From IMG/VR virus record IMGVR_UViG_3300042923_000376, positions 1 to 27,496 of that record: 27,496 nt of DNA; one strand, given 5' to 3'. Within the stretch, counting starts at the first letter, position 1. The number at the start of each line of letters is the position of its first letter. A program made the translations under genes and the position numbers. This stretch comes from a virus. This document shows positions 3,500-25,443 of the stretch, piece after piece. The notes below the pieces were generated by a model. It saw only the letters and a list, made by a program, of their open reading frames with translations, did no database searches and had not been told where the DNA came from.

Positions 3500-3564
3500 A
3501 AAGAGCGCCCATCCAGGCGCTCGTTTGGCACCCCAAACGGGGTGATTCACCCGCTTCACGCGGG
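3500..3564 (-). terminator. Three tandem stem-loops, the last a likely intrinsic terminator
   Basis: In the 98-base gap between the MuF-like gene and the scaffold gene, read on the minus strand, there are three stem-loops in a row. CCCGC/GCGGG lies at 3550-3564, GTTTGG/CCAAAC at 3523-3538 and GAGCGCC/GGCGCTC at 3503-3522. The last is followed by TTTCTG, a short U-rich tail. This would reduce read-through from the packaging genes, or process the mRNA, before scaffold and capsid, which are needed in other amounts. Full termination seems unlikely unless another promoter lies nearby; I see none clearly. Confidence 0.5.
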
Positions 3565-17480: not shown

Positions 17481-17707
17481 GAATCCGCCTCCTCGGCGTC
17501 GAGAGCGTCCAGGTGTAGCGATATGGCGTACTCCGCGGCTACCCGCCACGACGAGATCGTGAGCGACGGGTACCAGTCGGGCACGTCATGTTCGGTGATG
17601 GTCTCGTGGTCGACGAGCCGCAGCACCGTGTCATATGGGATGCGGGTGCCCTCAAAGCAAGGCCACCCTCCCAGCACGCGGCGCTGGGAGACGATGCGTT
17701 CGCTCAC
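17477..17707 (-). CDS. DUF433-family protein, antitoxin-like
   Basis: This 76-residue protein matches the DUF433 pattern: RRVLGGWPCFEGTRIPYDTV, then LRLVDHETITEHDVPDWYPSL and a final helix. DUF433 proteins have a helix-turn-helix and are often the antitoxin partner of PIN/VapC-type toxins. No toxin gene is visible on either side; its neighbours are a 77-residue protein and the helicase-loader-like gene. It may have been recruited as a stand-alone regulator. The start is GTG at 17707, overlapping the previous stop. Confidence 0.7.
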   Translation of the reverse strand: MSERIVSQRRVLGGWPCFEGTRIPYDTVLRLVDHETITEHDVPDWYPSLTISSWRVAAEYAISLHLDALDAEEADS

Positions 17708-18045
17708 GACTCCGCCTCCGCCTTCTGGGCTTTCAACTCCCGTACGGTGGCCCAGTACGCGGCTATCCCCTCGTCGGAGAACTCCCGCACCTCGGGTTCC
17801 AGTTGCCGGCGCAACCGTGCGGTGCGTTCCCGCGCCTCGAGCACACGCTTCGAGTTGCGGATCACGTGGGCGGGCATCAACCAGTCCGACGACTCCTGGT
17901 AATGGAGTGTCGCGGCTTCTACAGCCACGTCAAGGTCCACACGGGCCAGGTCACCAGCCCACACCTTCGCCACAGACGGCGACACCTTCCGGCCATCCCT
18001 AGCCGACGCCAGGGTCAAGAGCTGGAACGCTTCCGGCTCGTTCAT
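17704..18045 (-). CDS. Helicase loader / replisome organiser-like protein
   Basis: This 113-residue protein (ATG 18045, GGAGG 5 bases upstream) has FQLLTLASARDGRKVSPSVA, then VWAGDLARVDLDVAVEAA, HYQESSDWLMPAHVIRN, and an Arg/Glu-rich helix. The pattern of a small helical bundle with LMPAHVI occurs in actinophage proteins annotated as replisome organisers or helicase loaders. It lies directly after the initiator gene and overlaps it by 47 bases, a position equal to lambda P after O. It would bring host replicative helicase to the origin; this is inferred. Confidence 0.6.
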   Translation of the reverse strand: MNEPEAFQLLTLASARDGRKVSPSVAKVWAGDLARVDLDVAVEAATLHYQESSDWLMPAHVIRNSKRVLEARERTARLRRQLEPEVREFSDEGIAAYWATVRELKAQKAEAES

Positions 18046-18772
18046 CGTTACCTCCGTAGTACTTATAGAACTCAGCGGCGTTCTCGTCGGCTCGAGCGAG
18101 CTTCGTCGCGTTGGGGACACGCTCGTTGCGGAGCCAGTAACGCCACGCAGCAAGCCAGTCCTTCTTGGTCGCGGTTCGTCCCGCAGCCGCACGCCAGTAG
18201 TCCACGAACTGTTTCGTCGCCCGATCCACGTCGATTGCCGGCACTTCCTTCGCCGCCCACTGCCTCATCTCGGCTTTCAGCACGAATGGATCAGGGATGC
18301 GGGTGGCCCGCTTTTGCGGGCTCTCTCTTCCGTTAGGAAGAGGGTCGGGAGGGGAAAGGGACTGGGATGGGGCAAGGGGAACTTCTGGCGAAGTTCCCGC
18401 TTCGTTCGGCGATTGTTCGCCCGAACCCTCCGACTCCTTCGCAACACCCTTCTTTGCAGCCCGAACCTTTTTCATCCGCTCCCGAGCCGCCAGTCTTTCC
18501 GCCTCCACCTCGGCTTTACTCGGCTGGTAGTCAGCCCAGTCGCGGAACTGCCACCCACCTTCAGCCGGTTCCCAGAGCCCCGCATCGTGTAGGTCTTGGG
18601 CTAGGGCAGGTGTGCCACCGAGGCGAGGGAGGGTCTTGGATGGCACGTACCCATCGGTGAGGTATTTCGCACACCAAGATCCGGCCAGTGACCACAGCCC
18701 AACCGCCGCCAGCGAGAGGTCCATCACCTTCGGGTGTCCGTGGAATCCGTCGTCAACCTTGAACCAGGGCAC
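17999..18772 (-). CDS. Replication initiator, lambda O-like layout
   Basis: This 257-residue protein starts at GTG 18772 with AAGGAAG 6 bases upstream, overlapping the previous stop (TAGTG). Residues 1-85 (WFKVDDGFHGHPKVMDLS ... GWQFRDWADYQPS) form the winged-helix domain seen in actinophage DnaD/replication initiators. Residues 86-110 are a basic helix, 111-160 a low-complexity Ser/Pro/Gly linker, and 161-225 a helical C-terminal domain with FVDYWRAAAG and KKDWLAAWRYWL, likely to contact the loader. DNA coding for the linker holds four stem-loops and a purine tract, a candidate origin. The layout matches lambda O. Confidence 0.7.
   Translation of the reverse strand: MPWFKVDDGFHGHPKVMDLSLAAVGLWSLAGSWCAKYLTDGYVPSKTLPRLGGTPALAQDLHDAGLWEPAEGGWQFRDWADYQPSKAEVEAERLAARERMKKVRAAKKGVAKESEGSGEQSPNEAGTSPEVPLAPSQSLSPPDPLPNGRESPQKRATRIPDPFVLKAEMRQWAAKEVPAIDVDRATKQFVDYWRAAAGRTATKKDWLAAWRYWLRNERVPNATKLARADENAAEFYKYYGGNDERAGSVPALDPGVG
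18306..18425. other. Candidate replication origin inside initiator gene
   Basis: Four stem-loops lie in 120 bases: GCCCGC/GCGGGC with TTTT loop (18306-18321), CTCTTCC/GGAAGAG with GTTA loop (18325-18342), GGGAACTTC/GAAGTTCCC with TGGC loop (18377-18398), and TTCGGCGA/TCGCCCGAA with one bulge (18405-18425). Between the second and third is a purine-rich plus strand (18336-18381). They fall exactly on the low-complexity linker of the initiator (residues about 117-156). Lambdoid phages carry their origin at the same place within gene O. Confidence 0.45.
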
Positions 18773-19362
18773 TACCCACTTCCTTTCACCCAGCGCGCGA
18801 TGTCGCCGAAGTTGACCATCCGCCGCCATGCATCCCATGAGACGCACATCTCGCGTCGAGTGAGTGAACCGTTGTACGGGTCGGTGTTGTGCGTGTGAGC
18901 GTGGACGAGCCGCCCTCCGAGGTCGGGGAGGCGCCACTGTCCGTATCGCATCTCGCCCCGCCCAGGTCCGTCACCCTGTGAGGCGTACGGGTAGTGCGAA
19001 AGCAGTACGTCTTCTCGCTCGACACGGATGCGCGAGTAGTCACGGACGGTATCGAACACGGTCGCGAAGTGCAGTGCGTGGGGTGACTGCTGGCGGTGGA
19101 TGCTCGAGACGCTGTCGTGGTTGCCAGCGATAAGCGTCTTGCGTCCGGGGAGGGTCGCGAGGATGCTCAGCGCCGCCAACTCGCCCTGACGTGCCCCGGA
19201 CGAGATGTCCCCGAGGACGAACACGTGGTCGTCGGTCTGGACTTGTCGGCGCCACTTCGCGATGATGGCCGCGTCGTGCTCGTTCGTGTCTGCAAACCCA
19301 CGGATCTGTGAGACTTTCTCGTGACCGAAGTGCAGGTCACCGATGAACCATGTTGCGGGCAT
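18772..19362 (-). CDS. Calcineurin-like metallophosphoesterase (small type)
   Basis: This 196-residue protein has the full motif set: WFIGDLHFGHEKV (D-x-H), FVLGDISSG (GD), LIAGNHDS (GNHD), LLSHYP and LVHAHTHN (H-x-H). It is the compact phage and bacterial type that cleaves phosphomonoesters or diesters with two metal ions. It lies before the initiator gene and shares a stop/start overlap with it. The substrate is unknown; roles in removing 2',3'-cyclic or nucleotide-signal phosphates are possible. Confidence 0.85.
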   Translation of the reverse strand: MPATWFIGDLHFGHEKVSQIRGFADTNEHDAAIIAKWRRQVQTDDHVFVLGDISSGARQGELAALSILATLPGRKTLIAGNHDSVSSIHRQQSPHALHFATVFDTVRDYSRIRVEREDVLLSHYPYASQGDGPGRGEMRYGQWRLPDLGGRLVHAHTHNTDPYNGSLTRREMCVSWDAWRRMVNFGDIARWVKGSG

Positions 19363-24381: not shown

Positions 24382-25443
24382 TCAGACCTCGACGACCTTC
24401 CCGCCACGCAGCGTGTACCACGTGTCGGCCTTGATCTTCTTGCCGTCGACCACGACGCCCGCCGCAGCGGTGATGTTCCAGTCGTCGTCACGCTCTACCA
24501 GCAGGATCGCGGTGCCGACCTTTCCGCGTGCTCGTCCCGCGTAGCCCGTTGCGGAAGCAGCTGACTTGTCCCCACTGGCAGTCGCGGCACCGTAGTACCC
24601 ACTGGCAGTCGCGGCACCGGAGTACCCACTGGCAGTCGCGGCACCGTAGTACCCACTGGCAGTCGCGGCACCGGAGTACCCACTGGCAGTCGCGGCACCG
24701 TAGTACCCACTGGCAGTCGCGGCACCGGAGTCCCCACTGGCAGTCGCGGCACCGGAGTACCCACTGGCAGTCGCGGCACCGGAGTCCCCACTGGCAGTCG
24801 CGGCACCGGAGTACCCACTGGCAGTCGCGGCACCGTAGTCCCCACTGGCAGTCGCGGCACCGTAGTACCCACTGGCAGTCGCGGCACCGGAGTACCCACT
24901 GGCAGTCGCGGCACCGTAGTACCCACTGGCAGTCGCGGCACCGTAGTCCCCACTGGCAGTCGCGGCACCGTAGTACCCACTGGCAGTCGCGGCACCGGAG
25001 TCCCCACTGGCAGTCGCGGCACCGTAGTACCCACTGGCAGTCGCGGCACCGTTCGGCACCTCAGCCTTGACCGCAGCGTTCGCCTTCTTCGACGTCGCGC
25101 CGGCAACCGGCTTGGCGTTCTTGAAGACAAAATCGACCTGAGCCTTGATGAGCCCGGTAAGGTCGAGCTTCGCGCCGATCTTGATCGTGCGTCCCGCTAC
25201 CTTCGAGTCGCCACCCTCCTCACCGACAGCGTCAGTCAGTTCCACAAGGTGGTACTGGGACGAGTTGGGCTTGTAGTAGCGGAGCACATCGAGCGGCATG
25301 GTGACGGCGTGGAACCCGGAGGAACAGGCTTCCACCGGCCCCTCGTGAACGTACGTCTCACCCTCGGCGTACTGGAACCCGCGGCACTGCATGTTCTGGT
25401 CGAAGCCCTTGTAGGCGACGACGGTCTTCTTCTCTTCGGACAT
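24382..25443 (-). CDS. DUF7666-like protein with 18 nonapeptide repeats
   Basis: This 353-residue protein starts at ATG 25443 with AGAAGGGG upstream. Residues 8-105 (AYKGFDQNMQCRGFQYAEGE, then SSGFHAVTMPLDVLRYYKP) match the domain called DUF7666, found in phages and bacteria. Then 18 copies of GAATASG plus two variable residues span about residues 132-291, and a short domain (ARGKVGTAILLVERDDDW) closes the protein. The Ala/Gly/Ser/Thr-rich repeat probably forms a beta-helix or stacked fold that presents the variable pair. Function is unknown; a binding or decoy role is a guess. Confidence 0.75.
   Translation of the reverse strand: MSEEKKTVVAYKGFDQNMQCRGFQYAEGETYVHEGPVEACSSGFHAVTMPLDVLRYYKPNSSQYHLVELTDAVGEEGGDSKVAGRTIKIGAKLDLTGLIKAQVDFVFKNAKPVAGATSKKANAAVKAEVPNGAATASGYYGAATASGDSGAATASGYYGAATASGDYGAATASGYYGAATASGYSGAATASGYYGAATASGDYGAATASGYSGAATASGDSGAATASGYSGAATASGDSGAATASGYYGAATASGYSGAATASGYYGAATASGYSGAATASGYYGAATASGDKSAASATGYAGRARGKVGTAILLVERDDDWNITAAAGVVVDGKKIKADTWYTLRGGKVVEV
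24571..25050. repeat. 18-copy 27-bp tandem repeat
   Basis: Eighteen units of 27 bp lie head to tail inside the DUF7666-like gene (17 full steps plus the 21-base constant part of the last unit). The constant part is identical in all units. Variation is confined to two positions: TAC or GAC, then TAC or TCC, so only the pairs Tyr-Tyr, Tyr-Ser, Asp-Tyr and Asp-Ser occur. The unit is a multiple of three, so copy changes keep the frame. Confidence 0.97.

Follow-up and report, generated by a model that had tools for sequence, protein, structure and literature searches.

The stretch analysed here, hereafter the window, is the 27,496 bp of the IMG/VR record IMGVR_UViG_3300042923_000376. It carries a replication initiator gene with several DNA features inside its coding sequence (Table 1).

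Table 1. Genes, protein domains and DNA features at the initiator locus
Feature	Position	Strand	Evidence or remarks
Replication initiator gene, 257 aa	17999..18772	-	phrog_2447 'replication initiation protein', E 1.6e-50
N-terminal winged-helix DNA-binding domain (predicted), residues 1-112	18437..18772	-	AlphaFold2 and separate NTD-only model
C-terminal helical domain (predicted), putatively of primosomal DnaT/DnaD-like type	18002..18298	-	phrog_3992 and phrog_11896 'primosomal protein'
Small gene, 113 aa, overlapping the initiator's end	17704..18045	-	phrog_8924, unknown function
Iteron array, GAAC/GTTC half-sites at 18379, 18393, 18404, 18415, 18423	18379..18426	-	11-bp phasing
C-rich tract, CCC every 5-6 nt on coding strand	18342..18379	-	G-runs on plus strand, G-quadruplex-capable
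Hairpin 1, ctcttcc-GTTA-ggaagag on plus strand (coding-strand loop TAAC), 7 bp	18325..18342	.	Perfect; shape conserved, stem sequence free
Hairpin 2, gcccgc-TTTT-gcgggc on plus strand (coding-strand loop AAAA), 6 bp	18306..18321	.	Perfect

The initiator gene and the elements within its linker

The GTG start of the initiator gene overlaps the TAG stop of the upstream gene. Homologues in many named phages are annotated as 'replication initiation protein', and the N-terminal domain matched the phrog_2447 profile in 69 of 69 homologues. AlphaFold2 modelled residues 11-100 with pLDDT of ~90-98, a disordered linker at residues ~113-157, which coincides with the DNA element described below, and a helical C-terminal domain beyond it. 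The match of the initiator to phrog_3992 has an E-value of 3.7e-12; Pfam DnaT (PF17948) was found in 6 of 73 aligned homologues, the window's own protein having no match. Judging by these profile matches, the C-terminal domain is predicted to serve helicase loading or ssDNA binding, which we consider probable. A PDB sequence search with the initiator gave irrelevant weak matches only.

The product of the small gene was matched at 12 loci and adjoins the initiator in most of them. The original prediction had taken this gene for a helicase loader; that is possible but unproven, the function of phrog_8924 being unknown. Behind it lies a DUF433 gene (PF04255; 17477-17707, minus strand). Elsewhere in the window, a 353-aa protein (24382-25443, minus strand) consists in part of ~20 tandem repeats GAATASG[Y/D][Y/S]G.

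Perfect hairpins (stem of at least 6 bp, loop of 3-5 nt) were counted in 120-nt segments across the record. The segments richest in hairpin stem (22 bp) all fall in the linker region, while the maximum elsewhere in the 27,496 bp is 13 bp. There are three perfect hairpins, all with tetraloops: hairpins 1 and 2 and one at 18377-18398, whose 9-bp stem is the longest in the window. A fourth inverted repeat (~18402-18425, ~9 bp with one bulged C) was read directly from the sequence, its 5-bp core being also detected in the analysis. We compared the linker with 5000 synonymous shuffles, made by codon usage or by permutation. Three or more hairpins appeared in 0.08% (codon usage) and 0.02% (permutation) of them, and no shuffle reached a total stem of 22 bp (0/5000). 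The stem-loops are real and beyond chance. RNA folding energy over the whole hairpin stretch did not stand out from codon-shuffled controls (z -0.9); thus, the signal is one of local perfect pairing rather than of general stability.

On the plus strand, GTTC occurs three times at a spacing of 11 bp, with GAAC on both flanks; for CGAAC/GTTCG in the window, three copies were observed against 0.43 expected from codon shuffling (p 0.002). Codon-shuffle p-values of this iteron class are biased because the class was defined by the number of motifs; the phasing is unaffected. The adjoining tract is the sole four-run G3+ motif of the plus strand in the window.

The original prediction, made from sequence alone, had placed four stem-loops (three perfect, one bulged) in 18306-18425, together with a purine-rich plus-strand tract, within codons of the initiator linker. 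All of this held, the tract lying at 18342-18379 and the linker at residues ~113-157. Its statement that there is no classical iteron array failed: the GAAC/GTTC array is present, and stem-loops 3 and 4 fall within it. Its suggestion that recognition may depend on the stem-loops has to be corrected; recognition by the initiator is more probably through the iterons than through the hairpins, a likely reading for which there are no binding data.

Conservation of the element among relatives

We collected relatives from IMG/VR (35), further ones through the N-domain profile, 18 from bacterial genomes and 20 named phages, giving 118 distinct loci. Many loci are mutually related, so locus counts overstate the number of independent events. 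An HNH endonuclease gene was seen directly upstream of the initiator in L041, L042, L043 and L048. A recognisable tract was present in 107 of the 118 loci, and the order of parts in the linker was the same nearly everywhere: short repeats, the C-rich tract, then a hairpin in most loci and often a second one. This anatomy is shown directly. Immediately after the tract, 52 of 107 loci have a stem of at least 7 bp, as compared with 83 of 4720 random windows from the same loci, and the hairpin is retained across differing C-terminal domains. At 44 of the 107 loci the position where a stem would be expected has none that reaches 6 bp, and some of these loci have another, non-hairpin box.

In L105, L117 and L137 (similarly in L042, L049 and L053) the box TAGTGGTCACCTTGGGGAGGGG...GTCACCT replaces the hairpin behind the tract; it could perhaps be an alternative form of this part of the putative origin.

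The covariation test was anchored on the loop motif CT[AG][AC][ACG]G alone, ignoring pairing, to avoid circularity. Pairs 2-8 of the hairpin were Watson-Crick in 278 of 371 cases, against 112.5 +/- 10.5 after swapping arms among loci (maximum of 1,000 swaps: 142) and 89-142 upon sliding one arm. There were 41 different 7-nt stem arms among 53 rows, with all four Watson-Crick pair types at nearly every position. Such free stem sequence under strict pairing means that the shape is under selection. Neither G-U nor A-C pairs (0 and 0) occurred among 298 stem pairs, a count in which the inner four pairs per hairpin are Watson-Crick by selection; the lack of G-U pairs indicates DNA rather than RNA. 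Conservation at the DNA level is shown. Among the stem-loops, shape is conserved in hairpins 1 and 2 alone, stem-loops 3 and 4 being part of the iteron array. The coding-strand loop C-TRMV-G is conserved, and counterparts of hairpin 2 have CAAG loops in several relatives. Loops on the non-coding strand are mostly [G/T]NNA closed by C-G, resembling known DNA mini-hairpins of very high stability.

A further hairpin, cgacgaa-(A/G)CAG-ttcgtcg, recurs in L003, L008, L015 and L029 (locus ~3520-3547) in the C-domain codons for TKQFVDY; it may merely follow conservation of the protein there.

Across all tracts, CCC runs were spaced by 5 nt 310 times and by 6 nt 110 times, and their codon phases were distributed as 177/201/169. 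As the runs occupy all codon phases, the tract is not dictated by the protein. Tracts with five or more runs were found 87 times inside initiator genes and never (0) elsewhere in 758 kb; restriction to initiator genes is therefore shown. A G-quadruplex is possible on the opposite strand in 96 of 107 tracts. As a universal principle, however, it had to be rejected, since the tracts of the split-gene phages Barkley26 and Avani are not G-runs; only the short-period tract is general. In L104 and L110, tract-like GGAACAAGGA repeats stand on the coding strand, the reverse of the strand composition that the C-rich tract usually has.

In the GAAC/GTTC class (41 loci) the spacing of sites in the same orientation peaks at 11-12, 22-23, 33-34, 44-45 and 56-57 bp. 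The period that fits best is 11.3 bp, and sites occur in all three codon frames, which points to helical phasing of binding sites and not to a peptide repeat. Other clades have GTAACG, GTCCC/GGGAC or GTGAC repeats at the same linker position. Mapped on the tree of N-terminal domains, iteron class requires 15 changes, against 34.6 +/- 1.7 (minimum 30) when shuffled; C-domain type fits the same tree more loosely (24 changes; shuffled 33.3). Iteron class thus tracks the phylogeny of the N-terminal domain, as expected if the initiator recognises its own gene. The phylogenetic link is shown; binding is inferred.

Three phages (Sarge, B22 and Barkley26) have an initiator ORF that stops after the N-terminal domain and is followed by ~190-210 non-coding bases. 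Read by eye, this DNA contains repeats resembling iterons, a tandem tract of short units (CCAAGA in Sarge, CCCGTA in B22) and, after these, an inverted repeat (ACTCA-CCT-TGAGT in Sarge). Avani resembles these phages, but an annotated gene overlaps the region. The repeats of split-ORF phages differ from those of the main class.

A DNA-only search of IMG/VR for the tract plus CTAAAG, a pattern that fixes the loop and not the stem, returned 36 loci. The initiator domain adjoined the match in 34 of them, the other two being at contig ends, and 21 of the 26 loci new from this search had a stem of at least 7 bp. The pattern CCCATCCCATCCCATCCC alone was less specific (initiator domain at 22 of 80 loci). 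The element also occurs in an 86-kb circular Saccharopolyspora plasmid, where the hairpin has a 9-bp stem and a TAAC loop.

Interpretation as a replication origin and its rivals

We consider it likely that the DNA coding for the initiator's linker serves as the replication origin of the phage, an in-gene origin of theta type with an iteron/tract/hairpin mechanism; the origin role is inferred, there being no functional data. The lambda O plan put forward by the original prediction, with the origin in the initiator's own linker, was supported by every comparative test run except GC skew: hairpins exceeded codon-shuffled controls (overall folding energy did not), hairpins 1 and 2 are conserved in relatives through covariation, phased sites track the domain tree, split-ORF phages keep the order of parts, and the reciprocal search leads from DNA back to the gene. 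It remains an inference. Cumulative GC skew (window, Microbacterium phage Appa and Arthrobacter phage Shoya) had no turning point at the initiator gene; it was uninformative and does not mark an origin. It also counts against the origin reading that the tract is C/G-rich, unlike classic AT-rich unwinding elements.

In the proposed mechanism, the N-terminal winged helix would bind the GAAC/GTTC iterons inside its own gene, whose phasing places them on the same side of the DNA helix. The resulting nucleoprotein complex would open the adjoining short-period C/G tract, and the exposed single strand would fold into the shape-conserved hairpin or hairpins, which may be the landing or priming site for a primosome in which the C-terminal domain, of DnaT/DnaD-like type, would work with helicase and primase. 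Tract melting and the role of the hairpin are, like the identity of the origin, inferred without functional data.

The first rival is that the initiator mRNA contains a cis-acting RNA element: its hairpins would regulate how the replication genes are transcribed or translated or how their mRNA decays, and the repeats would be incidental. The hairpins do lie within a transcribed region, and coding-strand C-UAAC-G would also form a stable RNA tetraloop. Still, RNA would tolerate the G-U pairs that are entirely missing from the stems, the 11.3-bp phasing suits duplex DNA, the folding energy is unremarkable, and there is neither a terminator-like site nor an Rfam match. Scans for Rfam families, tRNAs, promoters and Rho-independent terminators (G+C-rich stem plus T-run) found nothing. 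We regard this explanation as very improbable.

Also very unlikely is the view that the element is an operator only, by which the initiator represses its own gene through GAAC/GTTC, with the origin elsewhere. Initiators often autoregulate, and the iterons match the phylogeny of the binding domain. However, an operator has no need of a C/G tract specific to these genes or of a covarying hairpin set in a fixed order, and no sigma-70-like promoter was detected in 17600-19000, the scan being restricted to that promoter type.

Third, the shared linker DNA could be a recombination joint that promotes swapping of C-terminal domains, its conservation reflecting exchange. In favour of this, the N-domain tree demands more changes of C-domain type than of iteron class (24 versus 15), and HNH genes lie just upstream in many relatives. 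Yet homology-based exchange would not keep free stems with strict pairing, and similar arrays survive in the non-coding DNA of split genes. As a sufficient explanation we find it very unlikely; exchange of C-terminal domains could, though, be a by-product of the origin.

Chance in a low-complexity Ser/Pro/Gly linker of a GC-rich genome, to which C/G-rich proline, serine and arginine codons would contribute, is practically eliminated by the codon-shuffled, slid and swapped controls and by the reciprocal search.

Returning to the origin reading, a bolder version would make the element a distinct class of origin used by many actinobacterial phages, where shape and loop are the features by which a hairpin of single-stranded DNA is recognised: a C-[G/T]NNA-G loop on the non-coding strand, with free stem, beside a G-quadruplex-capable short-period tract, would direct strand-specific priming or helicase loading. 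We put this forward tentatively, as at present the balance falls slightly against it.

The plan is common to many phages of actinobacteria and apparently undescribed; we found no description of such an element in the literature searched, subscription journals being mostly outside coverage. As far as that literature shows, the origins of most actinobacterial phages are unmapped, while initiators of the phrog_2447 kind match ~585 phage records. In many of those phages the element offers an exact, testable location for the origin, as well as a rule linking binding domain to iteron. It is a clean example of selection acting on one DNA stretch in two capacities, as code for a protein linker and as a DNA structure, and new plasmid replicons for use in actinobacterial genetics could be derived from it.

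Comparison with known systems

The one experimental study of actinobacterial phage origins that we found dealt with RepA prophage replicons from the cluster A mycobacteriophages Miko, Rachaly and Jeeves, for which repA and its flanks suffice for replication; the origin was presumed 'within or immediately adjacent to repA' and is unmapped, no repeats having been identified (PMC7157519). Hairpins of single-stranded DNA are used for priming in the IncQ ssi, the G4 ori and the N4 hairpin promoters, the IncQ ssi lying beside initiator iterons. The similarity of the phage hairpin to these is a resemblance only; no primase or polymerase is assigned to it.

In Bacillus subtilis oriC, initiator boxes lie beside a short-period single-strand recognition tract (DnaA-trios), and DnaD reads one strand (PMC10201434). 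Here too, boxes adjoin a short-period tract, whose function is inferred; the initiator and the tract sequence are different, and there is a hairpin in addition.

The rep gene of pSK41 carries its origin with Rep boxes centrally, the linker coded by the origin (121-199) being dispensable as protein, and RepA has a winged-helix N-terminal domain and a host-specific C-terminal domain (PMC5703833). The phage initiator likewise has a binding domain, a putatively origin-bearing linker and exchangeable C-terminal domains. No hairpin or C-tract is noted for pSK41 in the relevant sections of PMC5703833. The RepA_N Pfam family (PF06970) had no match in the window protein or in 73 homologues. In Foldseek searches, the RepA_N structure 5kbj ranked first (E 0.4) and 4pt7 fourteenth with the full model, and they ranked 10 and 16 with the NTD-only model; none of these hits was significant (E 0.2-0.7 across both models).

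The lambda origin is situated inside the initiator gene O (PMC6022878). It lies between the parts for the N-terminal DNA-binding and C-terminal helicase-loading domains of O, with the loader gene next, and is composed of four 18-bp iterons and an AT-rich region. As in O, the phased GAAC/GTTC repeats, to which binding is inferred, are within initiator coding sequence between two domains. Unlike in lambda, the half-sites are short and recur every 11.3 bp, they are accompanied by a G+C-rich tract with a 5-6-nt period and by covarying hairpins, and no AT-rich element lies beside the iterons. The in-gene origin plan itself is therefore precedented by lambda ori/O and pSK41 RepA_N; what appears new is the hairpin/G-tract module.
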